Part shown: positions 363 to 20,779 of the stretch, in pieces | How the letters are laid out: the number at the start of each line of letters is the position of its first letter | Position numbering within the stretch: the stretch's first letter is position 1 | Assembly: GCF_000003605.2 (NCBI RefSeq) | Contig: NW_003150540.1 | Location: 1 to 20,779, forward strand | Length of the DNA stretch: 20,779 nt | DNA from: Saccoglossus kowalevskii | Lineage: Eukaryota; Hemichordata; Enteropneusta; Harrimaniidae | Reading direction: 5' to 3' | Made by a program: the position numbers and the translations under genes | The notes under the pieces: model-generated | The model's database searches: none | Told to the model about the DNA's origin: nothing | Seen by the model: only the letters and a program-made list of their open reading frames with translations

Positions 363-1305
363 CAACAAACTGCGTACAAAGTTGTGAAAAGCGATTGCGA
401 AGTTGTTTTTTTTCATTCAGGATTGCTACCTGCGATATCATTTTAACAAGTCCCACAGTTAACAGTTTGAAAAAGTGAATAAATATTTCGTGAATTGATG
501 TTAAATAATCGTAGTGTTACTCCAAGTATGTAGAGGTCATAGGTCAATTCTAGAAGATACTTGTGTAAGCGATATCGATTTTAAAACATCCCAAAACCTG
601 AAATAGCCGCGAATTCGGTTTAAATTCAAATGATCTATGCAGTTGTGTGGTTAGGTGACCGATAAATGTTTAAAGTGAAGCACAATCGGTCGTGGATAGT
701 ACATGCATGGGAGATTCCCCGAGTAAACGAGCTGTTGAATGTATTTTTTTGGTTTCATCACAAACCTGGAAAAGATAAACGGCTACATTTCTGCATCTTT
801 TTTATTGTAATGTCAATCATTTGTTAGGAGAAAATTGTGGCACTTTTGTAATTTTTTTAAATAATAAAAAGTTTCGAAATCTCTTCTAATTTTCAATTAC
901 AAGTGGTTGATGCTGTCGGCACGTAGTGGGTTTTAAGTTGTTAACGCACCGTGCAAAGTTGTTCAAAGCCATAGCAAGGTTGTGCAATTATTGGAAAGTT
1001 GGTAGATATATTTGTATAAATGACCTAAGTTGTTGGCATATAGCAACGCGCACTTGTAAAGTCGACAAATTTAATGAAAGCCAGTTGAAAGCAGCGTACA
1101 GATATTCACGTGCGTTGACAGTAGAATGTTAGAAAACAGCGAGCAAAGTTGGGAAAAACGAAAGAAATGTTGGTGGAGTTGCTTGTAAATATAACCTAAG
1201 TCATTATCATGACAACCCCGCAGTTTAATGTCGAAAAAATTAAGTAAATGTTCCGAGAATGCCTCATATATAAGCAGATTATCACAACAGTCACCGAAAA
1301 GTCGA
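363..1305 (+). repeat. Unit 1: full-length type-A unit (943 bp)
   Basis: Type-A markers include a T-run of eight after AGTTG near 400, CACAGTTAACAG, CTTGTGTAAGCG, GGTTTAAATTC and a strongly diverged segment at ~680-880 (ATAAACGGCTACATTTC; TAAATAATAAAAAG). In contrast, ~885-1200 is almost the same as the corresponding part of type-B units, so the unit is a mosaic. The tail is type A (CAGTTTAATGTCG, AGTCGACAAC). Confidence 0.93.
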
Positions 1306-1668
1306 CAACAAACTGCTTACAAAGTTGTGAAAAGCGACTGCAAAGTTGTTTTTTTTCATTCAGGATTGCTACCTGCGATATCATTTTAACAAGTCCCACA
1401 GTTAACAGTTTGAAAAAGTGAATAAATATTTCGTGAATTGATGTTAAATAATCGTAGTGTTACTCCAAGTATGTAGAGGTCATAGGTCAATTCTAGAAAA
1501 TACTTGTGTAAGCGATATCGATTTTAAAACATCCCAAAACCTGAAATAGCCGCGAATTCGGTTTAAATTCAAATGATCTATGCAGTTGTGTGGTTAGGTG
1601 ACCGATAAATGTTTAAAGTGAATGTCTCATATATAAGCAGATTATCACAACAGTCACCGAAAAGTCGA
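1306..1668 (+). repeat. Unit 2: short (363 bp) type-A unit with internal deletion
   Basis: This is the second copy of the shortened unit. The join is GAA at 1620-1622, followed by TGTCTCATATATAAG. It has the same structure and breakpoint as 1-362, so the two descend from one deletion event that was later duplicated with its full-length neighbour. A private variant is AGAAAATACTTG where others have AGAAGATACTTG. Confidence 0.92.
1620..1622. other. Deletion junction in short unit 2
   Basis: The same junction as at 314-316. Here the right side reads GAATGTCTCAT, closer to the GAATGCCTCAT of full units, so this copy preserves the joint better than the first. Confidence 0.85.
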
Positions 1669-2611
1669 CAACAAACTGCGTACAAAGTTGTGAAAAGCGA
1701 TTGCAAAGTTGTTTTTTTCATTCAGGATTGCTACCTGCGATATCATTTTAACAAGTCCCACAGTTAACAGTTTGAAAAAGTGAATAAATATTTCGTGAAT
1801 TGATGTTAAATAATCGTAGTGTTACTCCAAGTATGTAGAGGTCATAGGTCAATTCTAGAAGATACTTGTGTAAGCGATATCGATTTTAAAACATCCCAAA
1901 ACCTGAAATAGCCGCGAATTCGGTTTAAATTCAAATGATCTATGCAGTTGTGTGGTTAGGTGACCGATAAATGTTTAAAGTGAAGCACAATCGGTCGTGG
2001 ATAGTACATGCATGGGAGATTCCCCGAGTAAACGAGCTGTTGAATGTATTTTTTTGGTTTCATCACAAACCTGGAAAAGATAAACGGCTACATTTCTGCA
2101 TCTTTTTTATTGTAATGTCAATCATTTGTTAGGAGAAAATTGTGGCACTTTTGTAATTTTTTTAAATAATAAAAAGTTTCGAAATCTCTTCTAATTTTAA
2201 AGTACAAGTTGTTGACGCTGTCGGCACGTAGGGGGTTTTAAGTTGTTAACGCACCGTGCAAAGTTGTTCAAAGCCATTGCAAAGTTGTGCAAATTATTGC
2301 AAAGTTGGTAGATATATTTGTATAAATGACCTAAGTTGTTGGCATATAGCAACGCGCACTTGTAAAGTCGACAAATTTAATGAAAGCCAGTTGAAAGCAG
2401 CGTACAGATATTCACGTGCGTTGACAGTGGAATGTTAGAAAACAGCGAGCAAAGTTGGGAAAAACGAAAGAAATGTTGGTGGAGTTGCTTGTAAATATAA
2501 CCTAAGTCATTATCATGACAACCCCGCAGTTAAATGTCGAAAACATTAAGTAAATGTTCCGAGAATGCCTCATATATAAGTAGATTATCAAAACAGTCAC
2601 AGAAAAGTTGA
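1669..2611 (+). repeat. Unit 3: full-length unit (943 bp), type A passing into type B
   Basis: The head and middle match unit 1 (type A). The last ~90 bp carry type-B words: GCAGTTAAATGTCGAAAAC from about 2528, ATAAGTAGATTATCAAAAC and AAAAGTTGACAAC. The A-to-B border of the array therefore falls inside this unit. Around 2190-2230 it has private changes (TTTAAAGTACAAGTTG, GTTGACGC, GTAGGGGG). Confidence 0.92.
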
Positions 2612-3557
2612 CAACAAACTGCTTACAAAGTTGTTAAAAGCGATTGCAAAGTTGGTAGTTTCATTCGGGATTGTTACCTGTGATATCATATTAACAAGTC
2701 CCATAGTTAAAAGTTCGAAAATGTGAATAAATATTTCGTGAATTGATGTTAAATTACCGTAGTCTTACTCCAAGTATGTAGAGGTCATAGATCAATTCTA
2801 GAAGATACTTGTGGAAGGGATATCGATTTTAAAACATCACAAAACCTGAAATAGCCGCGAATTCGTCTTAATTTCAAATGATCTATGCAGTTGCGTGGTT
2901 AAGTGACGGATAAATGTTTAATGTAAAGCACAATCGGGCGTGGTTAGTACTTGCATGGTAGACTCCCCGAGTAAACGAGCTGTTGATTCAATTGTTTTGT
3001 TTCATGAAAAACATGGAAAAGATATAGGGCAACATTTCTGCATTTTTTCTTCCTGTAATGTCAATCATTTATAGCAGAATGTCGTGCACTGTTGTAACTT
3101 TTTTAACTAAACTAATGGACAGTTTCGAAATTCCTTCTAATTTTCAATTACAAGTGGTTGATGCTGTCGGCACGTAGTGGGTTTTAAGTTGTTAATGCAC
3201 CGTGCAAAGTTGTTCAAAGCCATTGCAAAGTTGTGCAAATTATTGCAAAGGTGGTAGATATATTTGTATAAATGACCTAAGTTGTTGGCATATAGCAACG
3301 CGCACTTGTAAAGTCAACAAATTTAATGAAAGCCAGTTGAAAGCAGCGTACAGATATTCACGTGCGTTGACAGTGGAATGTTAGAAAACAGCGAGCAAAG
3401 TTGGGAAAAACGAAAGAAATGTTGGTGGAGTTGCTTGTAAATATAACCTAAGTCATTATCATGACAACCCCGCAGTTAAATGTCGAAAACATTAAGTAAA
3501 TGTTCCAAGAATGCCTCATATATAAGTAGATTATCAAAACAGTCACCGAAAAGTTGA
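2612..3557 (+). repeat. Unit 4: type-B unit (946 bp)
   Basis: This is the first complete type-B unit. Type-B markers are TTTAATGTAAAGCAC, ATATAGGGCAAC, CATTTATAGCAGAATGTCG, the doubled AACTA in TTAACTAAACTAATGG, and TAGCAACGCGCAC. Private variants include GGAAGGGATATCG, GTTAAGTGACGG and ATGGTAGACTCC. Confidence 0.95.
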
Positions 3558-4503
3558 CAACAAACTGCTTACAAAGTTGTTAAAAGCGATTGCAAAGTTG
3601 GTAGTTTCATTCGGGATTGTTACCTGTGATATCATATTAACAAGTCCCATAGTTAAAAGTTCGAAAATGTGAATAAATATTTCGTGAATTGATGTTAAAT
3701 TACCGAAGTCTTACTCCAAGTATGTAGAGGTCATAGGTCAATTCTAGAAGATACTTGTGGAAGCGATATCGATTTTAAAACATCACAAAACCTGAAATAG
3801 CCGCGAATTCGTCCTAATTTCTAATGATCTATGCTGTTGCATGGTTAGGTGACCGATAAATGTTTAATGTAAAGCACAATCGGGCGTGGTTAGTACTTGC
3901 ATGGGTGACTCCCCGAGTAAACGAGCTGTTGATTCAATTGTTTTGTTTCATGAAAAACATGGAAAAGATATAGGGCAACATTTTTGCATTTTTTCTTCCT
4001 GTAATGTCAATCATTTATAGCAGAATGTCGTGCACTGTTGTAACTTTTTTAACTAAACTAATGGACAGTTTCGAAATTCCTTCTAATTTTCAATTACAAG
4101 TGGTTGATGCTGTCGGCACGTAGTGGGTTTTAAGTTGTTAATGCACCGTGCAAAGTTGTTCAAAGCCATTGCAAAGTTGTGCAAATTATTGCAAATGTGG
4201 TAGATATATTTGTATAAATGACCTAAGTTGTTGGCATATAGCAACGCGCACTTGTAAAGTCGACAAATTTAATGAAAGCCAGTTGAAAGCAGCGTACAGA
4301 TATTCACGTGCGTTGACAGTGGAATGTTAGAAAACAGCGAGCAAAGTTGGGAAAAACGAAAGAAATGTTGGTGGAGTTGCTTGTAAATATAACCTAAGTC
4401 ATTATCATGACAACCCCGCAGTTAAATGTCGAAAACATTAAGTAAATGTTCCAAGAATGCCTCATATATAAGTAGATTATCAAAACAGTCACCGAAAAGT
4501 TGA
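3558..4503 (+). repeat. Unit 5: type-B unit (946 bp), first of an amplified trio
   Basis: It shares with the next two units CGTCCTAATTTCTAATG, ATGCTGTTGCATGG, ATTACCGAAGTC and AACATTTTTGC, which are absent from units 4 and 8. Its tail TGTTCCAAGAATGCC is shared with the tails of units 4 and 6. Confidence 0.95.
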
Positions 4504-5447
4504 CAACAAACTGCTTACAAAGTTGTTAAAAGCGATTGCAAAGTTGGTAGTTTCATTCGGGATTGTTACCTGTGATATCATATTAACAAGTCCCATAGTT
4601 AAAAGTTCGAAAATGTGAATAAATATTTCGTGAATTGATGTTAAATTACCGAAGTCTTACTCCAAGTATGTAGAGGTCATAGGTCAATTCTAGAAGATAC
4701 TTGTGGAAGCGATATCGATTTTAAAACATCACAAAACCTGAAATAGCCGCGAATTCGTCCTAATTTCTAATGATCTATGCTGTTGCATGGTTAGGTGACC
4801 GATAAATGTTTAATGTAAAGCACAATCGGGCGTGGTTAGTACTTGCATGGGTGACTCCCCGAGTAAACGAGCTGTTGATTCAATTGTTTTGTTTCATGAA
4901 AAACATGGAAAAGATATAGGGCAACATTTTTGCATTTTTTCTTCCTTAATGTCAATCATTTATAGCAGAATGTCGTGCACTGTTGTAACTTTTTTAACTA
5001 AACTAATGGACAGTTTCGAAATTCCTTCTAATTTTCAATTACAAGTGGTTGATGCTGTCGGCACGTAGTGGGTTTTAAGTTGTTAACGCACCGTGCAAAG
5101 TTGTTCAAAGCCATTGCAAAGTTGTGCAAATTATTGCAAAGTTGGTAGATATATTTGTATAAATGACCTAAGTTGTTGGCATATAGCAACGCGCACTTGT
5201 AATGTCGACAAATTTAATGAAAGCCAGTTGAAAGCAGCGTACAGATATTCACGTGCGTTGACAGTGGAATGTTAGAAAACAGCGAGCAAATTGGGAAAAA
5301 CGAAAGAAATGTTGGTGGAGTTGCTTGTAAATATAACCTAAGTCATTATCATGACAACCCCGCAGTTAAATGTCGAAAACATTAAGTAAATGTTCCAAGA
5401 ATGCCTCATATATAAGTAGATTATCAAAACAGTCACCGAAAAGTTGA
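4504..5447 (+). repeat. Unit 6: type-B unit (944 bp), second of the trio
   Basis: Near-identical to units 5 and 7, with two 1-bp deletions that explain its length: CTTCCTTAATG for CTTCCTGTAATG near 4945, and GCAAATTGGG for GCAAAGTTGGG near 5288. The first deletion happens to fuse frames and opens a chance 78-codon reading frame at 4832-5068 that sister units lack. Confidence 0.95.
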
Positions 5448-6392
5448 CAACAAACTGCTTACAAAGTTGTTAAAAGCGATTGCAAAGTTGGTAGTTTCAT
5501 TCGGGATTGTTACCTGTGATATCATATTAACAAGTCCCATAGTTAAAAGTTCGAAAATGTGAATAAATATTTCGTGAATTGATGTTAAATTACCGAAGTC
5601 TTACTCCAAGTATGTAGAGGTCATAGGTCAATTCTAGAAGATACTTGTGGAAGCGATATCGATTTTAAAACATCACAAACCTGAAATAGCCGCGAATTCG
5701 TCCTAATTTCTAATGATCTATGCTGTTGCATGGTTAGGTGACCGATAAATGTTTAATGTAAAGCACAATCGGGCGTGGTTAGTACTTGCATGGGTGACTC
5801 CCCGAGTAAACGAGCTGTTGATTCAATTGTTTTGTTTCATGAAAAACATGGAAAAGATATAGGGCAACATTTTTGCATTTTTTCTTCCTGTAATGTCAAT
5901 CATTTATAGCAGAATGTCGTGCACTGTTGTAACTTTTTTAACTAAACTAATGGACAGTTTCGAAATTCCTTCTAATTTTCAATTACAAGTGGTTGATGCT
6001 GTCGGCACGTAGTGGGTTTTAAGTTGTTAACGCACCGTGCAAAGTTGTTCAAAGCCATTGCAAAGTTGTGCAAATTATTGCAAAGTTGGTAGATATATTT
6101 GTATAAATGACCTAAGTTGTTGGCATATAGCAACGCGCACTTGTAAAGTCGACAAATTTAATGAAAGCCAGTTGAAAGCAGCGTACAGATATTCACGTGC
6201 GTTGACAGTGGAATGTTAGAAAACAGCGAGCAAAGTTGGGAAAAACGAAAGAAATGTTGGTGGAGTTGCTTGTAAATATAACCTAAGTCATTATCATGAC
6301 AACCCCGCAGTTAAATGTCGAAAACATTAAGTAAATGTTCCGAGAATGCCTCATATATAAGTAGATTATCAAAACAGTCACAGAAAAGTTGA
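5448..6392 (+). repeat. Unit 7: type-B unit (945 bp), third of the trio
   Basis: Near-identical to units 5 and 6. A 1-bp deletion, CACAAACC for CACAAAACC near 5676, accounts for its length. Its tail returns to the GTTCCGAGAATGCC and GTCACAGAAAAG forms seen in unit 8, which marks the right edge of the recent amplification. Confidence 0.95.
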
Positions 6393-7336
6393 CAACAAAC
6401 TGCTTACAAAGTTGTTAAAAGCGATTGCAAAGTTGGTAGTTTCATTCGGGATTGTTACCTGTGATATCATATTAACAAGTCCCATAGTTAAAAGTTCGAA
6501 AATGTGAATAAATATTTCGTGAATTGATGTTAAATTACCGTAGTCTTACTCCAAGTATGTAGAGGTCATAGGTCAATTCTAGAAGATACTTGTGGAAGCG
6601 ATATCGATTTTAAAACATCACAAAACCTGAAATAGCCGCGAATTCGTCGTAATTTCTAATGATCTATGCAGTTGCGTGGTTAGGTGACCGATAAATGTTT
6701 AATGTAAAGCACAATCGGACGTGGTTAGTACTTTCATGGGAGACTCCCCGAGTAAACGAGCTGTTGATTCAATTGTTTTGTTTCATGAAAACATGGAAAA
6801 GATATAGGGCAACATTTCTGCATTTTTTCTTCCTGTAATGTCAATCATTTATAGCAGAATGTCGTGCACTGTTGTAACTTTTTTAACTAAACTAATGGAC
6901 AGTTTCGAAATTCCTTCTAATTTTCAATTACAAGTGGTTGATGCTGTCGGCACGTAGTGGGTTTTAAGTTGTTAATGCACCGTGCAAAGTTGTTCAAAGC
7001 CATTGCAAAGTTGTGCAAATTATTGCAAAGTTGGTAGATATATTTGTATAAATGACCTAAGTTGTTGGCATATAGCAACGCGCACTTGTAAAGTCGACAA
7101 ATTTAATGAAAGCCAGTTGAAAGCAGCGTACAGTATTCACGTGCGTTGACAGTAGAATGTTAGAAAACAGCGAGCAAAGTTGGGAAAAACGAAAGAAATG
7201 TTGGTGGAGTTGCTTGTAAATATAACCTAAGTCATTATCATGACAACCCCGCAGTTAAATGTCGAAAACATTAAGTAAATGTTCCGAGAATGCCTCATAT
7301 ATAAGTAGATTATCAAAACAGTCACAGAAAAGTTGA
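6393..7336 (+). repeat. Unit 8: type-B unit (944 bp)
   Basis: It carries the type-B markers plus private variants CGTCGTAATTTC, AATCGGACGTGG and TACTTTCATGGG. Two 1-bp deletions explain its length: CATGAAAACATGG near 6787, and ACAGTATTCAC (sisters ACAGATATTCAC) near 7132. The second breaks the reading frame present in neighbouring copies. Confidence 0.95.
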
Positions 7337-8281
7337 CAACAAACTGCTTACAAAGTTGTTAAAAGCGATTGCAAAGTTGGTAGTTTCATTCGGGATTGTT
7401 ACCTGTGATATCATATTAACAAGTCCCATAGTTAAAAGTTCGAAAATGTGAATATATATTTCGTGAATTGATGTTAAATTACCGTAGTCTTACTCCAAGT
7501 ATGTAGAGGCCATAGGTCAATTCTAGAAGATACTTGTGGAAGCGATATCGATTTTAAAACATCACAAAACCTGAAATAGCCGCGAATTCGTCTTAATTTC
7601 TAATGATCCATGCAGTTGCGTGGTTAGGTGACCGATAAATGTTTAATGTAAAGCACAATCGGGCGTAGTTAGTACTTGCATGGGAGACTCCCCGAGTAAA
7701 CGAGCTGTTGATTCAATTGTTTTGTTTCATGAAAAACATGGAAAAGATATAGGGCAACATTTCTGCATTTTTTCTTCCTGTAATGTCAATCATTTATAGC
7801 AGAATGTCGTGCACTGTTGTAACTTTTTTAACTAAACTAATGGACAGTTTCGAAATTCCTTCTAATTTTCAATTACAAGTGGTTGATGCTGTCGGCACGT
7901 AGTGGGTTTCAAGTTGTTAACGCACCGTGCAAAGTTGTTCAAAGCCATTGCAAAGTTGTGCAAATTATTGGAAAGTTGGTAGATATATTTGTATAAAGGA
8001 CCTAAGTTGTTGGCATATAGCAACGCGCACTTGTAAAGTCGACAAATTTAATGAAAGCCAGTTGAAAGCAGAGTATAGATATTCATGTGAGATCACTGTA
8101 GAATGTTAGAAAACAGCGAGCAAAGTTGGGAAAAACGAAAATATGTTGGCGGAGTTGCTTGTAAATATAACCTAAATCATTATCGTGACAACCCCGCAGT
8201 TACATGTCAAAAACAATAAGTAAATGTTCCGAGAATGCCTCATATATAAGTAGATTATCAAAACAGTCACCGAAAAGTTGA
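7337..8281 (+). repeat. Unit 9: hybrid unit (945 bp), type B joined to type C
   Basis: Up to 8030 the unit is type B, including TAGCAACGCGCAC and the doubled AACTA. From 8072 it is type C (GAGTATAGATATTCATGTGAG, GAAAATATGTTGGCGG, CAAAAACAATAAG). Its right end continues identically into the next unit's pattern. Confidence 0.95.
8031..8071. other. Type B to type C switch interval
   Basis: The last type-B diagnostic bases are C8021 and C8030 (CAACGCGCAC; type C has AAACGCGCAG). The first type-C diagnostic base is at 8072 (GAGTATAG; type B has GCGTACAG). The bases between do not discriminate, so the exchange is confined to about 41 bp. Confidence 0.85.
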
Positions 8282-8379
8282 CAACAAACTGCATACAAAG
8301 TTGTTAAAGTCGATTGCAAAGTTGGTAGTTTCATTCGGGATTGTTACCTGTGATATCATATTAACAAGTCCCATAGTTA
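8041..8379 (+). repeat. 339-bp stretch repeated without change one unit later
   Basis: 8041-8379 and 8981-9319 read the same by eye, including rare variants such as GATCACTGTAG, GAAAATATGTTGG, ATTATCGTGACAACC and GTTAAAGTCG. The flanks differ at C8040/T8980 and C8380/A9320. This is an unusually clean adjacent-unit identity. Confidence 0.85.
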
Positions 8380-9221
8380 CAAGTTCGAAAATGTGAATAC
8401 ATATTTCATGAATTGATGTTAAATTACCGTAGTCTTACTCCAAGTATGTAGAGGTCATAGGTCAATTCTAGAAGATACTTGTGGAAGCGATATCGATTTT
8501 AAAACATTACAAAATCTGAAATAGCCAAGAATTCGTCTTAATTTCTAATGATCTATGCAGTTGTGTGGTTAGGTGACTGAAAAATGTTTAAAGTAAAGCA
8601 CAATCGGGCGTGGTTAGTACTTACATGGGAGACTCCCCGAGTAAACGAGCTGTTGATTCAATTGTTTTGTTTCATGACAAACATGGAAAAGATATACGGC
8701 AACATTTCTGCATTTTTTCTTCCTGTGATGTCAATCCTATATAGAAGAAAATCGTGCATTTTTATCACTTTTTTAACTAATGAACAGTTTCGAAATTCCT
8801 TCTAATTTTCAATTATAAGTGGTTGATGCTGTCGGCACGTAGTGGGTTTTAAGTTGTTAACGCCCCGTGCAAAGTTGTTCAAAGTCATTGTAAAGTTGTG
8901 CAAATTATTGCAAAGTTGGTAGATGTATTTGTATAAATGACCTAAGTTGTTGGCATATAGAAACGCGCAGTTGTAAAGTTGACAAATTTAATGAAAGCCA
9001 GTTGAAAGCAGAGTATAGATATTCATGTGAGATCACTGTAGAATGTTAGAAAACAGCGAGCAAAGTTGGGAAAAACGAAAATATGTTGGCGGAGTTGCTT
9101 GTAAATATAACCTAAATCATTATCGTGACAACCCCGCAGTTACATGTCAAAAACAATAAGTAAATGTTCCGAGAATGCCTCATATATAAGTAGATTATCA
9201 AAACAGTCACCGAAAAGTTGA
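8282..9221 (+). repeat. Unit 10: type-C unit (940 bp), near-twin of unit 21
   Basis: Type-C markers are a single AACTA (TTAACTAATG), CCTATATAGAAGAAAATCG and TAGAAACGCGCAG. It has a rare set of variants (AAAACATTACAAAATC, AGCCAAGAATTC, ACTGAAAAATG, TTTTTATCAC, CAATTATAAGTGG) otherwise found together only at 18634-19573. Confidence 0.96.
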
Positions 9222-9370
9222 CAACAAACTGCATACAAAGTTGTTAAAGTCGATTGCAAAGTTGGTAGTTTCATTCGGGATTGTTACCTGTGATATCATA
9301 TTAACAAGTCCCATAGTTAAAAGTTCGAAAATGTGAATAAATATTTCGTGAATTGATGCTAAATTACCGT
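8353..9370 (+). repeat. Long-range duplicated block, copy 1 (~1018 bp)
   Basis: It matches 18705-19722 at a constant offset of 10,352 bp, with only two mismatches found by eye (9012 against 19364, and an A-to-T near 9071/19423). Both copies carry the same rare variants. The block covers most of unit 10 and the head of unit 11. Confidence 0.88.
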
Positions 9371-10161
9371 TGTCTACTCCAAGTATGTAAAGGTCATAGG
9401 TCAATTCTAGAAGATACTTGTGGAAGCGATATCGATTTTAAAACATCACAAAATCTGCAATAGCCACGAATTCGTCTTAATTTCTAATGATCTATGAAGT
9501 TGTGTGGTTAGGTGACTGATAAATGTTTAAACTAAAGCACAATCGGGCGTGGTTAGTACTTGCATGGGTGACTCCCCGAGTAAACGAGCTGTTGATTCAA
9601 TTGTTTTGTTTCATGACAAACATGGAAAAGATATACGGCAACATTTCTGCATTTTTTCTTCCTGTGATGTCAATCCTATATAGAAGAAAATCGGGCATTT
9701 TTATACCTTTTTTAACTAATGGGCAGTTTCGAAATTCCTTCTAATTTTCAATTACAAATGGTTGATGCTGTCGGTACGTAGTGGGTTTTAAGTTGTTAAC
9801 GCCCCGTGCAAAGTTGTTCAAAGTCATTGCAAACTTGTGCAAATTATTGCAAAGTTCGTAGATGTATTTGTATAAATGACCTAAGTTGTTGGCATATTGA
9901 AACGCGCAGTTGTAAAGTTGAAAAATGTAATGAAAGCCAGTTGAAAGCAGCGTATAGATATTCACGTGCGTTGACAGTAGAATGTTAGAAAACTACGAGC
10001 AAAGTTGGGAAAAACGAAAGAAATGTTGGCGGAGTTGCTTGTAAATATAACCTAAGTCATTATCATGACATCTCCGCAGTTAAATGTCGAAAACATTAAG
10101 TAAATGTTCCGAGAATGCCTCATATATAAGTAGATAATCAAAACAGTCACCGAAAAGTTGA
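9222..10161 (+). repeat. Unit 11: type-C unit (940 bp)
   Basis: The head GCATACAAAG, GTTAAAGTCG and TTGATGCTAAATT match unit 22. From ~9371 it becomes private: GTTGTCTACTCC carries a 1-bp loss, followed by TCTGCAATAGCC, TTTAAACTAAAGC, TCGGGCATT and TTGAAAAATGTAATG. Confidence 0.96.
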
Positions 10162-11101
10162 CAACAAACTGCTTACAAAGTTGTTAAAAGCGATTGCAAA
10201 GTTGGTAGTTTCATTCTGGATTGTTACCTGTGATATCATATTAACAAGTCCCATAGTTAAAAGTTCGAAAATGTGAATAAATATTTCATGAATTGATGTT
10301 AAATTACCGTAGTCTTACTCCAAGTATGTAGAGGTCATAGGACAATTCTAGAAGATACTTGTGGAAGCGATATCGATTTTAAAACATCACAAAATCTGAA
10401 ATAGCCAAAAATTCATCTTAATTTCTAATGATCTATGCAGTTGTGTGGTTAGGTGACTGATAAATGTTTAAAGTAAAGCTCAATCGGGCGTGGTTAGTAC
10501 TTGCATGGGAGACTCCCCGAGTAAACGAGCTGTTGATTCAATTGTATTGTTTCATGACAAACATAGAAAAGATATACGGCAACATTTCTGCATTTTTTCT
10601 TCCTGTGACGTCAATCCTATATAGAATAAAATCGTGCATTTTTGTAACTTTTTAACTAATGGACAGTTTCCAAATTCCTTCTAATTTTCAATTACAAGTG
10701 CTTCATGCCATCGGCATGTAGTGTGTTTTAAGTTGTTAACGCACCGTGCAAAGTTGTTCAAAGTCATTGCAAAGTTGTGCAAAATAATGCAAAGTTGGTA
10801 GATATATTTGTATAAATGACCTAAGTTGTTGGCATATAGAAATGCGCAGTTGTAAAGTCGACACATTTAATGAAAAACAGTTGAAAGCAGCGTATAGATA
10901 TTCACGTGCGTTGACAGTAGAATGTTAGAAAACAGCGAGCAAAGTTGGGAAAAACGAAAGAAATGTTGGTGGAGTTGCTTGTAAATATAACCTAAGTCAT
11001 TATCATGACAACCCCGCAGTTAAATGTCGAAAACATTAAGTAAATGTTCCGAGAATGCCTCATATATAAGTAGATTATCAAAACAGTCACCGAAAAGTTG
11101 A
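10162..11101 (+). repeat. Unit 12: type-C unit (940 bp)
   Basis: Private changes include AGCCAAAAATTCATC, which destroys the EcoRI-type word. CATGCCATCGGCATG at 10704-10718 turns a non-palindromic site into a perfect 6-bp inverted repeat, and GTGCAAAATAATGC is also private. The T-run at ~10650 is one base shorter than in unit 11. Confidence 0.96.
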
Positions 11102-12041
11102 CAACAAACTGCTTACAACTTTGTTAAAAGCGATTGCAAAGTTGGTAGTTTCATTCGGGATTGTTACCTGTGATATCATATTAACAAGTCCCATAGTTAA
11201 AAGTTCGAAAATGTGAATAAATATTTCGTGAATTGATGTTAAATTACCGTAGTCTTACTCCAAGTATGTAGAGGTCATAGGTCAATTCTAGAAGATACTT
11301 GTGGAAGCGATATCGATTTTAAAACATCACAAAATCTGAAATAACCGCGAATTCGTCTTAATTTCTAATGATCTATGCAGTTGTGTTCGTAGGTGACTGA
11401 TAAATGTTTAAAGTAAAGCACAATCGGGCGTGGTTAGTACTTGCATGGGTGACTCCGCCAGTAAACGGGCTGTTGATTCAATTGTTTTGTATCATGACAA
11501 ACATGGAAAAGATATACGGCAACATTTCTGCATTTTTTCTTCCTGTGATGTCAATCCTATATAGAAGAAAATCGTGCATTTTTGTAAATTTTTAACTAAT
11601 GGACAGTTTCGAAATTCCTTCTAATTTTCAATTACATGTGGTTGATGCTATCGGCACGTAGTGTGTTTTAAGTTATCAACGCACCGTGCAAAGTTGTTCA
11701 AAGTCATTGTAAAGTTGTGCAAATTATTGCAAATTTGGTAGATATATTTGAATAAATGTCCTAAGTTGTTGGCATATAGAAACGCGCAGTGGTAAAGTCG
11801 ACAAATTTAATGAAAGCCAGTTGAAAGCAGCGTATAGATATTCACGTGCGTTGACAGTAGAATATTAGAAAACAGCGAGCAAAGTTGGGAAAAACGAAAG
11901 AAATGTTGGCGGAGTTGCTTGTAAATATAACCTAAGTCATTATCATGACAACCCGGCAGTTAAATGTCGAAAACTTTAAGTAAATGTTTCGAGAATGCCT
12001 CACATATAAGCAGATTATCAAAACAGTCACCGCTAAGTTGA
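11102..12041 (+). repeat. Unit 13: type-C unit (940 bp)
   Basis: It shows TTACAACTTTGTT in place of TTACAAAGTTGTT near 11115, GTGTTCGTAGG, GACTCCGCCAG and AGTTATCAACGC. The last of these resembles AGTTATCGACGC in unit 15, two units away. Its tail is the first to carry CACATATAAG instead of CATATATAAG. Confidence 0.96.
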
Positions 12042-12981
12042 CAACAAACTGCTTACAAAGTTGTTAAAAGCGATTGCAAAGTTGGTAGTTTCATTCGGGA
12101 TTGTTACCTGTGATATCATATTAACAAGTCCCATAGTTAAAAGTTCGAACATGTGAATAAATATTTCGTGAATTGCTGTTAAATTACCGTAGTCATACTC
12201 CAAGTATGTAGAGGTCATAGGTCAGTTCTAGAAGATACTTGTGGAAGCGATATCGATTTTAAAACATCACAAAATCTGAAATAGCCGCGAATTCGTCTTA
12301 ATTTCTAATGATCTATGCAGTTGTGTGGTTAGCAGACCGATAAATGTTTGAAGTAAAGCACAATCGGGCGTGGTTAGTACTTGCATGGGAGACTCCCCGA
12401 GTAAAGAAACCGTTGATTCAATTGTTTTGTTTCATGACAAACATAGAAAAGATGTACGGCAACATTTCTGCATTTTTTTCTTCCTGTGATGTCAATCCTA
12501 TATAGAAGAAAATCGTGCATTTTTGTAACTTTTAACTAATGGACAGTTTCGAAATTCCTTCTAATTTTCAATTACAAGTGGTTGATGCTATCGGCACGTA
12601 GTGTGTTTTAAGTTGTCAACGCACCGTGCAAAGTTGTTCAAAGTCATTGCAAAGTTGTGCAAATTATTGCAAAGTTGGTAGATATATTTGTATAAATGAC
12701 CTAAGTTGTTGGCATATAGAAACGCGTAGTTGTAAAGTCGACAAATTTAATGAAAGCCAGTTGAAAGCAGCATATAGATATTCACGTGCGTTGACAGTAT
12801 AATATTAGAAAACAGCGAGCAAAGTTGGGAAAAACGAAAGAAATGTTGGCGGAGTTGCTTGTAAATATAACCTAAGTCATTATCATGACAAACCCGCAGT
12901 TAAATGTCGAAAACATTAAGTAAATGTTCCGAGAATGCCTCACATATAAGCATATTATCAAAACAGTCACCGAAAAGTTGA
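12042..12981 (+). repeat. Unit 14: type-C unit (940 bp)
   Basis: Private changes include GGTTAGCAGACCG, TGTTTGAAGTAAAG and GTAAAGAAACCG. There are compensating single-T indels: a seven-T run near 12475 and a shorter run near 12531. These shift any reading frame relative to its neighbours. Confidence 0.96.
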
Positions 12982-13922
12982 CAACAAACTGCTTACAAAG
13001 TTGTTAAAAGCGAATGCAAAGTTGGTAGTTTCATTCGGGATTGTTTCCTGTGATATCATATTAACAAGTCCCATATTCAAAAGTTCGAAAATGTGAATAA
13101 ATATTTCGTGAATTGATGTTAAATTACCGTAGTCTTACTCCAAGTATGTAGAGGTCATAGGTCAATTCTAGAAGATACTTGTGGAAGCGATATCGATTCT
13201 AAAACATCACAAAATCTGAAATAGCCGCGAATTCGTCTTAATTTCTAATGGTCTATGCAGTTGTGTGGTTAGCTGACCGATAAGTGTTTAAAGCAAAGCA
13301 CAATCGGGCATGGTTAGTACTTGCATGGGAGACTCCCCGAGTAAACGAGCTGTTGATTCAATTGCTTTGTTTCATGACAAACATGGAAAAGATGTACGGC
13401 AACATTTCTGCATTTTTTCTTCCTGTGATCTCAATCCTATATAGAAGAAAATCGTGCATTTTTGTAACTTTTTAACTAATGGACAGTTTCGAAATACCTT
13501 CTAATTTTCAATTACAAGTGGTTGATGCTATCGGCACGTAGTGTGTTTTAAGTTATCGACGCACCGTGCAAAGTTGTTCAAAGTCATTGTAAAGTTGTGC
13601 AAATTATTGCAAATTTGGTAGATATATTTTGTATAAATGACCTAAGTTATTGGCATATAGAAACGCGCAGTTGTAAAGTCGACAAATTTAATGAAAGCCA
13701 GCTGAAAGCAGCACATAGATATTCACGTGCGTTGACAGTAGAATGTTAGAAAAACGCGAGCAAAGTTGGAAAAAACGAAAGAAATGTTGGCGGAGTTGCT
13801 TGTAAATATAACCTAAGTCATTATCATGACAACCCCGCAGTTAAATTTCGAAAACATTAAGTAAATGTTCCGAGAATGCCTCACATATAAGCAGATTATC
13901 AAAACAGTCACCGAAAAGTTGA
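12982..13922 (+). repeat. Unit 15: type-C unit (941 bp)
   Basis: It carries ATAAGTGTTTAAAGC, which removes the ATG seen in sister copies, plus GATCTCAATCC, GAAATACCTTC and AGTTATCGACGC. One extra T in ATATATTTTG near 13627 explains the 941-bp length. Confidence 0.96.
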
Positions 13923-13935
13923 CAACAAACTGCTT

Positions 13936-14113
13936 ACAAAGTTGTTAAAAGCGATTGCAAAGTTGGTAGTTTCATTCGGGATTGTTATTTGTGATATCAT
14001 ATTAACAAGTCCCATAGTTAAAAGTTCGAATATGTGAATAAATATTTCGTGAAGTGATGTTAAATTACCGTAGTCTTACTCCAAGTATGTAGAGGTCATA
14101 GGTCAATTCTAGA
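13936..14113 (+). repeat. Ancestral sub-repeat A in reference unit 16
   Basis: It starts ACAAAGTTGTT. ACCT lies at offset 52, ATAGTT at offset 79 and TAAATATT 25 bp after that. The same words stand at nearly the same offsets in sub-repeats B and C, and the first ~80 bp align almost without gaps. A second GCAAAGTTGG follows 21 bp after the first. Confidence 0.75.
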
Positions 14114-14176
14114 AGCTACTTGTGGAAGCGATATCGATTTCAAAACATCACAAAATCTGAAATAGCCGCGAATTCG
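14107..14176. other. Cluster of three 8-bp palindromes (reference unit 16)
   Basis: TTCTAGAA (14107-14114), CGATATCG (14129-14136) and CGAATTCG (14169-14176) are perfect palindromes within 70 bp, and the equivalents are kept in most units. TTCTAGAA is present in all units except the last partial one. CGATATCG is altered in units 17-19 and CGAATTCG in units 0, 10, 12, 18, 20 and others. They give XbaI-, EcoRV/ClaI- and EcoRI-type sites once per unit. No function is demonstrated. Confidence 0.6.
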
Positions 14177-14317
14177 TCTTAATTTCTAATGATTTATGCT
14201 GTTGTGTGGTTAGCTGACCGATAAATGTTTAAAGTAAAGCACAATCTGGCGTGATTAGTACTTGCATGGGAGACTCCCCGAGTAAACGAGCTGTTGATTC
14301 AATTGTTTTGTTTTATG
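14114..14317 (+). repeat. Ancestral sub-repeat D in reference unit 16 (weakest match)
   Basis: TTGTGGAAGCGAT aligns with TTGTTAAAAGCGAT of sub-repeat A. GCTGTT (GCAGTT in most units) stands 184 bp after the ATAGTT of A, with TAAATGTT 24 bp later, as in B. The rest is too diverged to align by eye. The deletion breakpoint of the short units lies in this element. Confidence 0.5.
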
Positions 14318-14508
14318 ACAAACATGGAAAAGATGTACGGCAACATTTCTGCATTTTTTCTTCCTGTGATGTCAATCCTATATAGAAGAAAATCGTGCAT
14401 TTTTGTAACTTTTTAACTAATGGACAGTTTCGAAATTCCTTCTAATTTTCAATTACAAGTGTTTGATGCTATCGGCACGTAGTGTGTTTTAAGTTGTCAA
14501 CGCACCGT
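14318..14508 (+). repeat. Ancestral sub-repeat E in reference unit 16
   Basis: It starts ACAAACATGG-AAAAG. CCTGTGATGTCAAT resembles CCTGTGATATCATAT of sub-repeat A, and GCATTT at offset 79 occupies the GCAGTT position. AAAATCGTGCA and TAACTAATGGACAGTTTCG resemble GAAACGCGCAG and TTTCATGAAAGCCAGTTG of sub-repeat C. This is the segment in which types A, B and C differ most. Confidence 0.6.
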
Positions 14509-14699
14509 GCAAAGTTGTTCAAAGTCATTGCAAAGTTGTGCAAATTATTGCAAAGTTGGTAGATATATTTGTATAAATGACCTAAGTTGTTGGCATATAG
14601 AAACGCGCAGTTGTAAAGTCGACAAATTTCATGAAAGCCAGTTGAAAGCAGCGTATAGATATTCACGTGCGTTGACAGTAGAATGTTAGAAAACAGCGA
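14509..14699 (+). repeat. Ancestral sub-repeat C in reference unit 16, with 21-bp extension
   Basis: The core begins at 14530 (GCAAAGTTGTG), with TTGTA at offset 40, CCTAAG at 52 and GCAGTT at 78, matching sub-repeat B at 41, 53 and 78. An extra 21-bp copy of the GCAAAGTTG motif sits in front at 14509, so three copies run in tandem (14509, 14530, 14550). Confidence 0.78.
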
Positions 14700-14875
14700 G
14701 CAAAGTTGGGAAAAACGAAAGAAATGTTGGCGGAGTTGCTTGTAAATATAACCTAAGTCATTATCATGACAACCCCGCAGTTAAATGTTGAAAACATTAA
14801 ATAAATGTTCCGAGAATGCCTCACGTATAAGCAGATAATCAAAACAGTCACCGAAAAGTTGACAACAAACTGCTT
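14700..14875 (+). repeat. Ancestral sub-repeat B in reference unit 16
   Basis: GCAAAGTTGGG is followed by TTGTAAATATAACCTAAG, ATCATGACAACC, GCAGTTAAATGT and ATAAATGTT. It aligns with C on its left side and with A on its right side (AGTTAAATGT against AGTTAAAAGT). It runs across the arbitrary unit boundary at 14862/14863 into the next copy of A at 14876. Confidence 0.78.
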
Positions 14876-15813
14876 ACAAAGTTGTTAAAAGCGATTGCAA
14901 AGTTGGTAGTTTCATTCGGGATTGTTACCTGTGATATCATATTAACAAGTCCCATAGTTAAAAGTTTGAAAATGTGAATAAATATTTCGTGAATTGATGT
15001 TAAATTACCGTAGTCTTACTGCAAGTATGTAGAGGTCATAGGTCAATTCTAGAAGATACTTGTGGAAGTGATATCGATTTTAAAACATCACAAAATCTGA
15101 AATAGCCGCGAATTCGTCTTAATTCGTCTTAATGCATTTCGATCTATGCAGTTGTGTGGTTAGGTGACTGATAAATGTTTAAAGTAAAGCACAATCGGGC
15201 GTGGTTAGTACTTGCATGGGAATCTCCCCGAATAAACGAGCTGTTGATTCAATTGTTTTGTTTCATGACAAACATGGAGAAGATATACGGCAACATTTCT
15301 GCATTTTTTCTTCCTGTGATGTCAATCCTATATATAAGAAACTCGTGCATTTTTGTAACTTTTTTAACTAATGGACAGTTTCGAAATTCCTTCTAATTTT
15401 CAATTACAAGTGGTTGATGCTGTCGGCACGTAGTGTGTTTTAAGTTGTCAACGCACCGTGCAAAGTTGTTCAAAGTCATTGCAAAGTTGTGCAAATTATT
15501 GCAAAGATGGTAGATGTATTTGTATAAATGACCTAAGTTGTTGGCATATAGAAACGCGCAGTTGTAAAGTCGACAAATTTAATGAAAGCCAGTTGAAAGC
15601 AGCGTATAGATATTCACGTGCGTTGACAGTAGAATGTTAGAAAACAGCGAGCAAAGTTGGGAAAAACGAAAGAAATGTTGGCGGAGTTGCTTGTAAATAT
15701 AACCTAAGTCATTATCATGACAACCCCGCAGTTAAATGTTGAAAACATTAAATAAATGTTCCGAGAATGCCTCACGTATAAGCAGATTATCAAAACAGTC
15801 ACCGAAAAGTTGA
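14863..15813 (+). repeat. Unit 17: longest type-C unit (951 bp)
   Basis: It is 11 bp longer than standard because of a 10-bp tandem duplication at 15111-15130 and an altered junction (AATGCATTTCGATC). ACTGCAAGTATG, GGAAGTGAT and CATGGAGAAG are shared only with unit 18. Confidence 0.96.
15111..15130 (+). repeat. 10-bp tandem duplication AATTCGTCTT x2 in unit 17
   Basis: AATTCGTCTT occurs twice in a row where all other units have it once. The following bases are also rearranged (AATGCATTTCGATC in place of AATTTCTAATGATC). It is a unique tag for this unit. Confidence 0.95.
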
Positions 15814-16754
15814 CAACAAACTGCTTACAAAGTTGTTAAAAGCGATTGCAAAGTTGGTAGTTTCATTCGGGATTGTTACCTGTGATATCATATTAACAAG
15901 TCCCATAGTTAAAAGTTCGAAAATGTGAATAAATATTTCGTGAATTGATGTTAAATTACCGTAGTCTTACTGCAAGTATGTAGAGGTCATAGGTCAATTC
16001 TAGAAGATACTTGTGGAAGTGATTTCGATTTTAAAACATCACAAAATCTGAAATAGCCGCGCATTCGTCTTAATTTCTAATGATCTATGCAGTTGTGTGG
16101 TTTGGTCGCCGATAAATGTTTAAAGTAAAGCACAATCGGGCGTTGTTAGTACTTGCATGGGAGAATCCCCGAGTAAACGAGCTGTTGATTCAATTGTTTT
16201 GTTTCATGACAAACATGGAGAAGATATACGGCAACATTTCTGCATTTTTTCTTCCTGTGATGTCAATCCTATATATAAGAAAATCGTGCATTTTTGTAAC
16301 TTTTTTAACTAATGGACAATTTCGAAATTCCTTCTAATTTTCAATTACAAGTGGTTGATGCTGTCGGCACGTAGTGTGCTTTAAGTTTTCAACGCGCCGT
16401 GCAAAGTTGTTCAAAGTCATTGCAAATTTGTGCAAATTATTGCAAACTTGGTTGATATATTTGTATAAATGCCATAAGTTGTTGGCGTATAGAAACGCGC
16501 AGTTGCAAAGTCGACAAATTTAATGAAAGCCAGTTGAAAGCAGCGTATAGATATTCATGTGAGTTGACTGTAGAATGTTAGAAAACAGCGAGCAAAGTTG
16601 GGAAAAACGAAAGAAATGTTGGCGGAGTTGTTTGTAAATATAACCTAAGTCATTATCATGACAACCCCACAGTTAAATGTCGGAAACATTAAGTAAATGT
16701 TCCGAGAATGCCTCACGTATAAGCAGATTATCAAAACAGTCACCGAAAAGTTGA
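15814..16754 (+). repeat. Unit 18: type-C unit (941 bp)
   Basis: The left part shares ACTGCAAG, GGAAGTGAT and ATGGAGAAG with unit 17. The middle GGTTTGGTCGCCG and GGGCGTTGTTAG are shared with unit 19 instead. The unit therefore bridges two neighbours. GCGCATTCG removes the EcoRI-type word. Confidence 0.96.
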
Positions 16755-17693
16755 CAACAAACTGCTTACAAAGTTGTTAAAAGCGATTGCAAAGTTGGTA
16801 GTTTCATTCGGGATTGTTATCTGTGATATCATATTAACAAGTCCCATAGTTAAAAGTTCGAAAATGTGAATAAATATTTCGTGAATTGATGTTAAATTAC
16901 CGTAGACTTACTCCAATTATGCAGAGGTCATAGGTCAATTCTAGAAGATACTTGTAGAAGCGATATCAATTTTAAAACATCACAAATCCTGAAATAGCCG
17001 CGAATTCGTCTTAATTTCTAATGATCTATGCAGTTGTGTGGTTTGGTCGCCGATAAATGTTTAAAGTAAAGCACAATCGGGCGTTGTTAGTACTTATATG
17101 GGAGACTCCCCGAGTAAACGAGCTGTTGATTCAATTGTTTTGTTTCATGACAAACATGGAAAAGATGTACGGCAACATTTCTGCATTTTTCTTCCTGTGA
17201 TGTCAATCCTATATAGAAGAAAATCGTGCATTTTTGTAACTTTTTAACTAATGGACAGTTTCGAAATTCCTTCTAATTTTCAATTACAAGTGGTTGATGC
17301 TATCGGCACGTAGTGTGTTTTAAGTTGTCAACGCACCGTGCAAAGTTGTTCAAAGCCATAGCAAATTTGTGCAAATTATTGCAAACCTGGTAGATATATT
17401 TGTATAAATGCCCTTAGTTGTTGGCATATAGAAACGCGCAGTTGTAAAGTTGACAAATGTAATGATAGCCAGTAGAAAGCAGCGTATAGATATTCATGTG
17501 AGTTGACTGTAGAATGTTAGAAAACAGCGAGCAAAGTTGGGGAAAACGAAAGAAATGTTGGCGGAGTTGCTTGTAAATATAACCTAAGTCATTATCATGA
17601 CAACCCCGCAGTTAAATGTCGAAAACATTAAGTAAATGTTCCAAGAATGCCTCACGTATAAGCAGATTATCAAAACAGTCACCGAAAAGTTGA
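16755..17693 (+). repeat. Unit 19: type-C unit (939 bp)
   Basis: It carries GTAGACTTACTCCAATTATGC, TTGTAGAAGCGATATCAATT and TTGCAAACCTGG. GCCAGTAGAAAGC near 17468 recurs only in unit 22. One T is missing in GCATTTTTCTTCC near 17190, giving the shortest full unit. Confidence 0.96.
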
Positions 17694-18633
17694 CAACAAA
17701 CTGCTTACAAAGTTGTTAAAAGCGATTGCAAAGTTGGTAGTTTCATTCGGGATTGTTACCTGTGATATCATATTAACAGGTCCCATAGTTAAAAGTTCGA
17801 AAATGTGAATAAATATTTCGTGAAATGATGTTAAATTACCGTAGTCTTACTTCAAGTATGTAGAGGTCATAGGTCAATTCTAGAAGATACTTGTGGAAGC
17901 GATATCGATTTTAAAACATCACAAAATCTGAAATAGCCGCAAATTCGTCTTAATTTATAATGATCTATCTAGTTGTGTGGTTAGGTGACCGATAAATGTT
18001 TAAAGTAAAGCACAATCGGGCGTGGTTAGTACTTGCATGGGAGACTCCCCGAGTAAACGAGCTGTTGATTCAATTGTTTTGTTTCATGACAAACATGGAA
18101 AAGATGTACGGCAACATTTCTGCATTTTTTCTTCCTGTGATGTCAATCCTATATATAAGAAAATCGTGCATTTTTGTAACTTTTTAACTAATGGACAGTT
18201 TCGAAATTCCTTCTAATTTTCAATTACAAGTGCTTGATGCTATCGGCACGTAGTGGGTCTTAAGTTGTTAGCGCCCCGTGCAAAGTTGTTCAAAGTCATT
18301 GCAAACTTGTGCAAATTATTGCAAAGTTGGTAGATGTATTTGTATAAATGACATAAGTTGTTGGCATATAGAAACGCGCAGTTGTAAAGTTGACAAATTT
18401 AATGAAAGCCAGTTGAAAGCAGCGTATAGATATTCATGTGAGTTGACAGTAGAATGTTAGAAAACAGCGAGCAAAGTTGGGAAAAACGAAAGAAATGTTG
18501 GCGGAGTTGCTTGTAAATATAACCTAAGTCATTATCATGACAACCCCGCAGTTAAATGTCGAAAACATTAAGTAAATGTTCCGTGAATGCCTCACATATA
18601 AGCAGATTATCAAAACAGTCACCGAAAAGTTGA
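17694..18633 (+). repeat. Unit 20: type-C unit (940 bp)
   Basis: Variants include TTAACAGGTCCC, TACTTCAAG, CGCAAATTCG (EcoRI-type word lost) and GATCTATCTAG. From ~18255 it acquires GCGCCCCGTGC and TAGATGTATTTG, words typical of units 10, 11, 21 and 22. Confidence 0.96.
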
Positions 18634-19573
18634 TAACAAACTGCTTACAAAGTTGTTAAAAGCGATTGCAAAGTTGGTAGTTTCATTCGGGATTGTTACC
18701 TGTAATATCATATTAACAAGTCCCATAGTTACAAGTTCGAAAATGTGAATACATATTTCATGAATTGATGTTAAATTACCGTAGTCTTACTCCAAGTATG
18801 TAGAGGTCATAGGTCAATTCTAGAAGATACTTGTGGAAGCGATATCGATTTTAAAACATTACAAAATCTGAAATAGCCAAGAATTCGTCTTAATTTCTAA
18901 TGATCTATGCAGTTGTGTGGTTAGGTGACTGAAAAATGTTTAAAGTAAAGCACAATCGGGCGTGGTTAGTACTTACATGGGAGACTCCCCGAGTAAACGA
19001 GCTGTTGATTCAATTGTTTTGTTTCATGACAAACATGGAAAAGATATACGGCAACATTTCTGCATTTTTTCTTCCTGTGATGTCAATCCTATATAGAAGA
19101 AAATCGTGCATTTTTATCACTTTTTTAACTAATGAACAGTTTCGAAATTCCTTCTAATTTTCAATTATAAGTGGTTGATGCTGTCGGCACGTAGTGGGTT
19201 TTAAGTTGTTAACGCCCCGTGCAAAGTTGTTCAAAGTCATTGTAAAGTTGTGCAAATTATTGCAAAGTTGGTAGATGTATTTGTATAAATGACCTAAGTT
19301 GTTGGCATATAGAAACGCGCAGTTGTAAAGTTGACAAATTTAATGAAAGCCAGTTGAAAGCAGCGTATAGATATTCATGTGAGATCACTGTAGAATGTTA
19401 GAAAACAGCGAGCAAAGTTGGGTAAAACGAAAATATGTTGGCGGAGTTGCTTGTAAATATAACCTAAATCATTATCGTGACAACCCCGCAGTTACATGTC
19501 AAAAACAATAAGTAAATGTTCCGAGAATGCCTCATATATAAGTAGATTATCAAAACAGTCACCGAAAAGTTGA
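18634..19573 (+). repeat. Unit 21: type-C unit (940 bp), near-twin of unit 10
   Basis: It opens with TAACAAACTGC, a C-to-T change in the register word. From 18705 it follows unit 10 almost base for base. Its first ~70 bp follow the ordinary type-C pattern instead (GCTTAC, TTAAAAGCG), so the duplicated block starts within the unit, not at its edge. Confidence 0.96.
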
Positions 19574-19722
19574 CAACAAACTGCATACAAAGTTGTTAAA
19601 GTCGATTGCAAAGTTGGTAGTTTCATTCGGGATTGTTACCTGTGATATCATATTAACAAGTCCCATAGTTAAAAGTTCGAAAATGTGAATAAATATTTCG
19701 TGAATTGATGCTAAATTACCGT
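18705..19722 (+). repeat. Long-range duplicated block, copy 2 (~1018 bp)
   Basis: Partner of 8353-9370. It covers most of unit 21 and the head of unit 22. Outside the block, neighbouring units fall back to ordinary type-C divergence, so block ends do not coincide with monomer boundaries. Confidence 0.88.
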
Positions 19723-20514
19723 AGTCTTACTCCAAGTATGTAGAGGTCATATGTCAATTCTAGAAGATACTTGTGGAAGCGATATCGATTTTAAAACATC
19801 ACAAAACCTGAAATAGCCGCGAATTCGTCTTAATTTCTAATGATCTATGCAGTTGTGTGGTTAGCTCACCGCTAAATGTTTAAAGTAAACCACAATCGGG
19901 TGTGGTTAGTACTTGCATGGGAGACTCCCCGAGTAAACGAGCTGTTGATTCAATTGTTTTGTTTCTTTACAAACATGGAAAAGATATACGGCAACATTTC
20001 TACATTTTTTCTTCCTGTGATGTCAATCCTATATAGAAGAAAATCGTGCATTTTTATAACTTTTTTAACTAATGGACAGTTTCGAAATTCCTTATAATTT
20101 TCAATTACATGTGGTTGATGCTGTCGGCACGTAGTGGGTTTTAAGTTGTTAACGCCCCGTGCAAAGTTGTTCAAAGTCATTGTAAAGTTGTGCAAATTAT
20201 TGCAAAGTTGGTAGATGTATTTGTATAAATGACCTAAGTTGTTGGCATATAGAAACGTGCAGTTGTAAAGTTGACAAATTTAATGAAAGCCAGTAGAAAG
20301 CAGCGTATAGATATTCATGTGAGTTGACTGTAGAATGTTAGAAAACAGCGAGCAAAGTTGGGAAAAACGAAAGAAATGTTGGCGGAGTTGTTTGTAGATA
20401 TAACCTAAGTCATTATCATGACAACCCCGCAGTTAAATGTCAAAAAAAATAAGTAAATGTTCTGTGAATGCCTTATATATAAGTAGATTATCAAAACAGT
20501 CACCGAAAAGTTGA
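19574..20514 (+). repeat. Unit 22: type-C unit (941 bp)
   Basis: The head matches unit 11 (GCATACAAAG, GTTAAAGTCG, TTGATGCTAAATT). Later variants are private: GGTTAGCTCACCGC, TAAACCACAATCGGGTG, TTTCTTTACAAAC and an eight-A run near 20441. CCAGTAGAAAGC near 20290 links it to unit 19. Confidence 0.96.
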
Positions 20515-20779
20515 CAACAAACTGCTTACAAAGTTGTTAAAAGCGATTGCAAAGTTGGTAGTTTCATTCGGGATTGTTACCTGTGATATCATATTAACAA
20601 GTCCCATAGTCAAAAGTTCGAAAATGTGAATAATATTTCATGAATTGATGTTAAATTACCGTAGTCTTACTCCAAGTATGTAGAGGTCATAGGTCAATCT
20701 AGAAGATACTTGTGGAAGCGATATCGATTTTAAAACATCACAAATCTGAAATAGCAACGAATTCGTCTTAATTTTCTAA
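20515..20779 (+). repeat. Unit 23: partial type-C unit cut by the window edge
   Basis: The first 265 bp of a unit. It contains several small losses not seen elsewhere: GTGAATAATATTTC, GTCAATCTAGAAG (which breaks the otherwise constant TTCTAGAA), CACAAATCTG and AGCAACGAATTC. The unit runs off the window. Confidence 0.94.

Follow-up and report, generated by a model that had tools for sequence, protein, structure and literature searches.

The 20,779-bp stretch of Saccoglossus kowalevskii DNA analysed here (the window) raises the question of how a long satellite monomer is put together. The first-pass annotation had divided its 940-bp unit into five sub-repeats of ~188 bp, named A, D, E, C and B in their order along the monomer, and had seen in them an older satellite that diverged and was re-amplified as a pentamer. 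We examined the array as a whole, the relationships among the five proposed parts, and the origin and divergence of the part called D.

The array and its triplicated modules

The window is the whole of contig C4051 in a 572-Mb assembly of 4830 contigs, and it is satellite from end to end (1..20779; window coordinates are on the + strand throughout), with 21 monomers of full length (939-951 bp), two short monomers (362 and 363 bp) and partial ends. The 940-bp period that had been proposed was confirmed both by these full monomers and by the autocorrelation of the window, in which 940 is the top lag. Pairwise identity among the full monomers is 0.89-0.99, so that the array consists, as satellite DNA does, of similar monomers in long head-to-tail order. 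The single monomer on which the earlier description was based, cut at AACAAACTGC, occupies 13924..14863. The short monomers (2..363 and 1307..1669) alternate with 943-bp monomers, and the window consensus was built without them. In the first, D is joined to B, with the 5S core (see below), E, C and most of B missing; the second has the same type of D-B junction and has also lost the 5S core. A map of array rearrangements in 50-bp chunks gave 34 jumps, of which 30 measure 13-52 bp in either direction and four are large (-365, -382, 449 and -399); none of the 34 is a jump of 170, 177, 347 or 593 bp.

Nine more contigs were sampled, and the 25 stretches fetched from them have a satellite coverage of 0.99-1.00. 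Outside the window, monomers were kept only if a single BLAST match spanned them and their length was 900-990 bp, with partial and rearranged ones dropped. Compared with the window consensus, the array consensuses are 0.99 identical for C389 and C1067, 0.92-0.95 for C482, C743, C1338, C1195, C2256 and C3566, and 0.85 for C882. At up to three mismatches, a 37-mer of module B has 1425 places in the assembly, a 38-mer of the 5S stretch 1282 and a 37-mer of E 278; the B count, the largest of the three patterns tried, corresponds to ~1.3 Mb of satellite, roughly 0.2% of the assembly. Exact searches gave 0 matches for a 44-mer in genome_contigs and 0 for a 29-mer in viral_contigs.

The old internal amplification is a triplication and not a pentamer. 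Its modules follow each other in the order C-B-A, with anchors 170 and 177 bp apart, and lie, by conversion from the consensus, at 14519..14680 (C, consensus 597-758), 14690..14849 (B, consensus 768-927) and 13926..14087 (A, consensus 3-164). In this respect the earlier description holds, as the pairwise alignment scores of A, B and C exceed all of the 300 shuffles made per pair (A-B, 254 against a null of 118±15; B-C, 229 against 122±17; A-C, 207 against 132±18). With the CAAAGTTG-bearing part cut out, A-B and B-C are still significant (0/500 shuffles as high) and A-C is no longer so (0.672 of 500 shuffles as high). Profiles built from two modules recovered the held-out A, B and C with 42.9, 42.7 and 33.7 bits, the maximum among 300 shuffles per case being 5.4 bits. 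Shared 6-8-mers of the consensus cluster at lags of 160-180 and 340-380, which are the distances between the modules, as well as at short lags. The aligned identity among A, B and C is 0.49-0.58; between each module and its equivalent in three other subfamilies it is 0.81-0.98. The triplication therefore predates the subfamilies. Sub-repeats of 21 bp of the CAAAGTTG type are found at 14508-14558, ahead of and within module C, and occur at the same place in other monomers.

The D/E block and its 5S-like stretch

The remaining block, D/E (14088..14518), is unrelated to the triplicated modules. D had been described as aligning weakly and E reasonably with A, B and C, and neither has a significant pairwise match (D, p 0.21-0.80; E, p 0.076-0.37, with faint, non-significant values of 0.076 against A and 0.088 against C). 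The A/B/C profiles match nothing in D/E, where they score as in shuffled sequence: the three held-out two-module profiles gave no match in the block, and the full profile gave none in D/E of three subfamilies and, in a fourth, a hit of -2.5 bits just ahead of C that 14.6% of 1000 shuffles equal. The first-pass annotation had itself named the absence of such a profile match as the outcome that would speak against its pentamer. A glocal alignment of D/E to A/B/C scored 17.1 against 17.7±4.2 for 60 shuffles.

The regular features on which the fivefold division had been built do not replace this missing homology. The GCAGTT anchor is indeed present in D, E, C and B at consensus 274, 473, 684 and 854 (14198, 14397, 14607 and 14777), but A has no GCAGTT match, its anchor being ATAGTT, with two mismatches. 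If two mismatches are allowed, 98% of 200 shuffles also give five sites spaced 165-215 bp, and as it is A that needs them, the spacing carries no weight; at one mismatch, the five-site series is absent from the real monomer and from all 200 shuffles. That the spacings sum to 940 is uninformative, because five spacings around a closed period always total that period. Among the words said to recur at matching offsets, TAAATGTT is found at two places in the monomer (D and B), CCTAAG at two (C and B), and CAAAGTTG at six, all in A, B, C or just ahead of C, with 0 in D or E. Within 170-210 bp, the consensus shows no outlier in single-base autocorrelation: the maximum there (0.300 at lag 192) and the value at lag 168 (0.305) are below the mean whole-range shuffle maximum (0.315, n=300). 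With no five-part periodicity beneath it, the suggested closeness to a nucleosomal repeat falls away. Given that D and E are not homologous to A/B/C and that no unit periodicity runs across the monomer, it is not a pentameric higher-order repeat. An attempt to rescue the pentamer through the way in which the short monomers join D to B was set aside: both have the same junction, which probably goes back to a single event and lies close to a short word that D and B share.

Judged by its alignments, D represents part of a 5S rRNA gene and has an origin other than that of A, B and C. The Rfam 5S rRNA alignment runs full-length over 14190..14302 with 15.9 bits, and with 13.9 bits in another monomer; the gathering score is 38 and the helices are not intact, so the stretch falls short of a 5S rRNA gene. 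At the gathering threshold, Rfam gave no match in the window, and weak matches to SpR08 sRNA, CRISPR-DR63, SNORD25, sR18 and MIR827 were taken as chance. The window consensus aligns to a human-type 5S gene with a score of 176 (68±9 for 500 shuffles), and the ten subfamily consensuses align to the own 5S gene of this genome with 176-226, the shuffle means being 75-78 with standard deviations of 9-11 (200 shuffles each). The likeness is concentrated in one part: the window consensus agrees with the own gene at 29/30 positions of nt 61-90, at 33/60 of nt 1-60 and at 15/29 of nt 91-119, and the C882 consensus at 29/30 in the core and at 38/60 and 16/29 in the flanks. In the window, core and pooled flanks differ in identity with p 5e-6, and some of the flanking sequence may not be of 5S origin at all. 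In 5S genes, nt 61-90 hold two parts of the internal promoter, the intermediate element and box C. The family consensus has a 30-base stretch identical to the genome's own 5S gene, the counterpart of which in the window, at 14245..14274, carries two differences. Within the 5S-like stretch, the GCAGTT anchor of D is in the 5' part, most clearly in subfamily C882. As for the 5S helices, the 940-bp unit of the window keeps 10 of 25 pairs, with 2 compensatory, 1 one-sided, 9 broken and 3 gapped. With the helices mostly lost, any constraint would be on DNA elements and not on a 5S-like RNA.

The own 5S genes were located on C3485, C2212 and C3801: of 18217 first-look candidates, 47 went on to scoring, and 47/47 passed the cut-off; one gene read served as the reference used above. 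The real arrays have two unit lengths, ~1139 bp (C3485) and ~1579 bp (C2212 and C3801). With no more than one mismatch allowed, the 5S core is present at 4490 sites, a number that pools real 5S genes and two satellites. Among the 100 matches listed, the spacings on C324 and C525 are multiples of ~944, and those on C111, C242, C404, C554 and C576 are mostly multiples of ~216 bp. The latter belong to a second satellite, in which a 119-bp 5S-like gene is followed by a 97-bp spacer (C554:2455-2700, the unit being assembled from neighbouring copies). Its 5S helices are far better kept than those of the 940-bp unit (18/25 pairs kept, 3 compensatory, 2 one-sided and 2 broken), the three compensatory pair changes being among the changes that separate its 5S-like part from the real gene. 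The 216-bp satellite may represent either a structured 5S rRNA variant or a satellite resembling PcP190 of frogs.

Possible constraint on the 5S-like stretch and the Pol III question

Divergence was measured in 249 monomers from ten arrays, with the 5S stretch set at consensus 308-373, limits taken from the alignment to the human-type 5S. Between arrays, the stretch has changed little. Window and C882 differ at 2/65 positions in it and at 129/876 elsewhere (p 0.003), C482 and C882 at 3/65 and 128/876 (p 0.012), window and C2256 at 0/65 and 68/876 (p 0.006), and C2256 and C882 at 2/65 and 144/876 (p 0.001), comparisons that are not independent, as C882 is shared; window and C482 differ at 1/65 and 48/876, which is not significant alone (p 0.13). 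The ratio of fixed to polymorphic sites between window and C882 is 2/23 in the stretch and 129/221 elsewhere (p 0.002), and two other array pairs gave p 5e-5 and 2e-4. In four comparisons, the stretch ranks 10-17 of 941 sliding windows, and the three top-ranked windows of each comparison all overlap it. Slower evolution of the 5S part than of the rest would be in the manner of PcP190, but blocks of module B are equally slow. Among the 941 windows, 35 show no more variation across the ten consensuses than the 5S stretch does; 32 of these 35 are in B, whose blocks at consensus ~787-900 (within 14690-14849 in the window) match it in invariance between subfamilies. The copy counts agree with this, those of the B 37-mer and the 5S 38-mer both being far above that of the E 37-mer, and that of B the highest. 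There are thus at least two conserved blocks, of which a promoter explains at most one. By permutation, the least divergent 60-bp window has p 0.09 (0.23 for 40 bp and 0.23 for 75 bp). Within arrays, the polymorphism of the 5S stretch is above that of the rest in nine of the ten and slightly below it in C3566 (0.027-0.084 versus 0.016-0.053).

Downstream of the stretch, a TTTT (14306..14309) occupies the position that the terminator has in a 5S gene. Counted from the start of TTAGTACTT, a T-run begins at 44-51 nt in 9/9 readable consensuses, the TTTT of the real gene being at 48. Its length is 4 in the window, C389 and C1067, 6 in C1195, 7 in C882, and 9-11 in C482, C1338, C2256 and C3566. The C743 consensus, in which the exact 20-mer is missing, stays outside this count, and its 18 monomers are included in the count of single monomers, where 198/249 have a T-run and 51/249 have none by the rule used (present in 17/21 monomers in the window, 20/34 in C1067 and 3/9 in C1195). 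At the level of the consensuses, and from sequence only, an internal promoter and an oligo-T terminator at 5S spacing are present, and the 940-bp satellite is possibly Pol III-competent.

A functional reading would go further. The megabase-scale satellite would be kept as a set of Pol III units, with selection acting on the array consensus for the 5S internal promoter and terminator, and not for 5S RNA structure, while single copies mutate freely; the array would recruit TFIIIA and Pol III and make a short RNA or a chromatin state, and the 216-bp satellite alongside it would keep the 5S fold. We regard this as a tentative proposal that is rather unlikely to hold in full. If true, two 5S-derived satellites would exist under different constraints side by side in one genome. 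For the functional step, the chances are about even that the satellite is non-functional and the 5S piece a passenger, its low divergence being due to chance, shared ancestry or biased homogenisation. The raised polymorphism within nine of the ten arrays, the equally conserved blocks of B and the permutation value for 60-bp windows are what an inert piece would lead one to expect. Less easily accommodated are that the part retained is the promoter core and no random part of 5S, that nine subfamily consensuses have T-runs of varied length at the same position, and that fixed differences are few relative to the polymorphism seen.

Probable composite origin of the monomer, and its relatives

The monomer is probably a composite, in which a C/B/A trimer of a ~170-bp module and an unrelated block of ~430 bp with a degraded 5S gene were amplified together and homogenised by unequal exchange. 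We favour this reading because of the triplication, the lack of relationship between D/E and the modules, the homology of the 5S piece to the genome's own gene, the T-run, and the small number of differences that subfamilies show in the 5S stretch. What is kept of the 5S remnant would mainly be the internal-promoter region (presumably the intermediate element, box C and part of box A) together with the downstream T-run. A 5S-derived sequence, either a copy of a 5S gene or a 5S-type SINE, would have inserted next to or inside a small tandem array, followed by amplification of the combined unit and its homogenisation by unequal exchange, a process that would also yield length variants such as the 362/363-bp monomers, with D joined to B and the 5S core lost. 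The promoter part may have persisted through binding of TFIIIA or other Pol III factors; this is the step of which we are least certain, and the probability given to the composite origin does not extend to it. As to traits of a dispersed element, the fetched stretches are array throughout, and neither an insertion site nor a target duplication was established in them.

The composite origin has a less plausible competitor in a decayed 5S rDNA repeat, in which the whole 940-bp unit would descend from a 5S gene with its spacer, and A/B/C would be spacer sub-repeats. Such a descent would account for a 5S-like stretch that aligns across most of the gene with a T-run at the terminator's place, and the real units of ~1139 and ~1579 bp are similar in size. 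Against this, ~600 bases of one real spacer, representing one of the two unit types, are unlike the monomer, with scores no higher than those of 60 shuffles each; Rfam at the gathering threshold gave no match in this 600-base piece. The spacer of the 216-bp unit is unrelated as well (89-101 in forward orientation against shuffle means of 92-93 in three subfamilies, and 110-119 for the reverse complement against 101-102, within the shuffle range). Highly improbable, finally, is an ancient pentamer in which D and E are homologues of A/B/C that diverged past recognition, D having also received a 5S piece, since the anchor spacing near 188 bp, the weak similarity of E to A and C and the D-B join near a shared TAAATGTT are outweighed by the failure in D/E of profiles able to recover a held-out module, the shuffle-like glocal score, the ease with which shuffles reproduce the anchors, and the 5S identity of D.

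Among known systems, higher-order repeats such as alpha satellite have a long monomer with related internal units that is homogenised block-wise, and the 940-bp monomer is similarly long, with related internal units, and homogenised as a block. In contrast to alpha satellite, relatedness is limited here to three of the five proposed parts, and close to half of the monomer consists of other DNA, making it a composite and not a pure higher-order repeat. A nucleosome-phased pentamer is thereby replaced by a mosaic of a triplicated module and what would be a captured 5S promoter. The 5SHindIII satellite of the fish Hoplias malabaricus, compared here by description and not by sequence, is also named after 5S, and is reportedly 5S-derived with a shorter monomer.

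5S-derived satellites and repeats with a 5S promoter are already known (PMC11675491, PMC4201667, PMC10886601, PMC10853983). The frog satellite PcP190 is described as having a ~190-bp monomer with a 120-bp 5S-like conserved region and a variable rest (PMC11675491, PMC4201667). As in PcP190 so described, part of a tandemly repeated monomer comes from a 5S rRNA gene, with the 5S part of the 940-bp unit below the Rfam cut-off; unlike in PcP190, the monomer is 940 bp long, the promoter region is the one part well kept, and a triplicated module with no relation to 5S makes up almost half of the unit. The 216-bp satellite, with its 119-bp 5S-like part and 97-bp spacer, is nearer to that description. 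The internal promoter of 5S consists of box A, the intermediate element and box C (PMC10886601), all of which Ajax is described as retaining while its upstream sequence diverges, and the 5S promoter of Cassandra mirrors that of its own host (PMC10886601, PMC10853983). Like Ajax, SINE3 and Cassandra as summarised in these sources, the 940-bp family retains the 5S promoter alone, with a core identical to the host's own. Unlike these retroelements, which are dispersed and have LTRs or SINE structure, the 940-bp unit forms a long head-to-tail array. A composite of this type was not recognised from titles and abstract openings among the papers listed in literature searches, and it may already bear another name. 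For PcP190, what conserves part of a satellite is a question left open (PMC4201667, PMC11675491); if the promoter were active here, a comparison of the real 5S genes with the 216-bp and 940-bp satellites could show whether promoter function, RNA structure or neither is responsible.

A minor observation concerns the CpG positions of the monomer. The consensus has a CpG observed/expected ratio of 1.20, and CpG positions outside the 5S stretch are more polymorphic than other positions in 10/10 arrays, which suggests germline methylation; inside the stretch, they are more polymorphic in six of the ten arrays.
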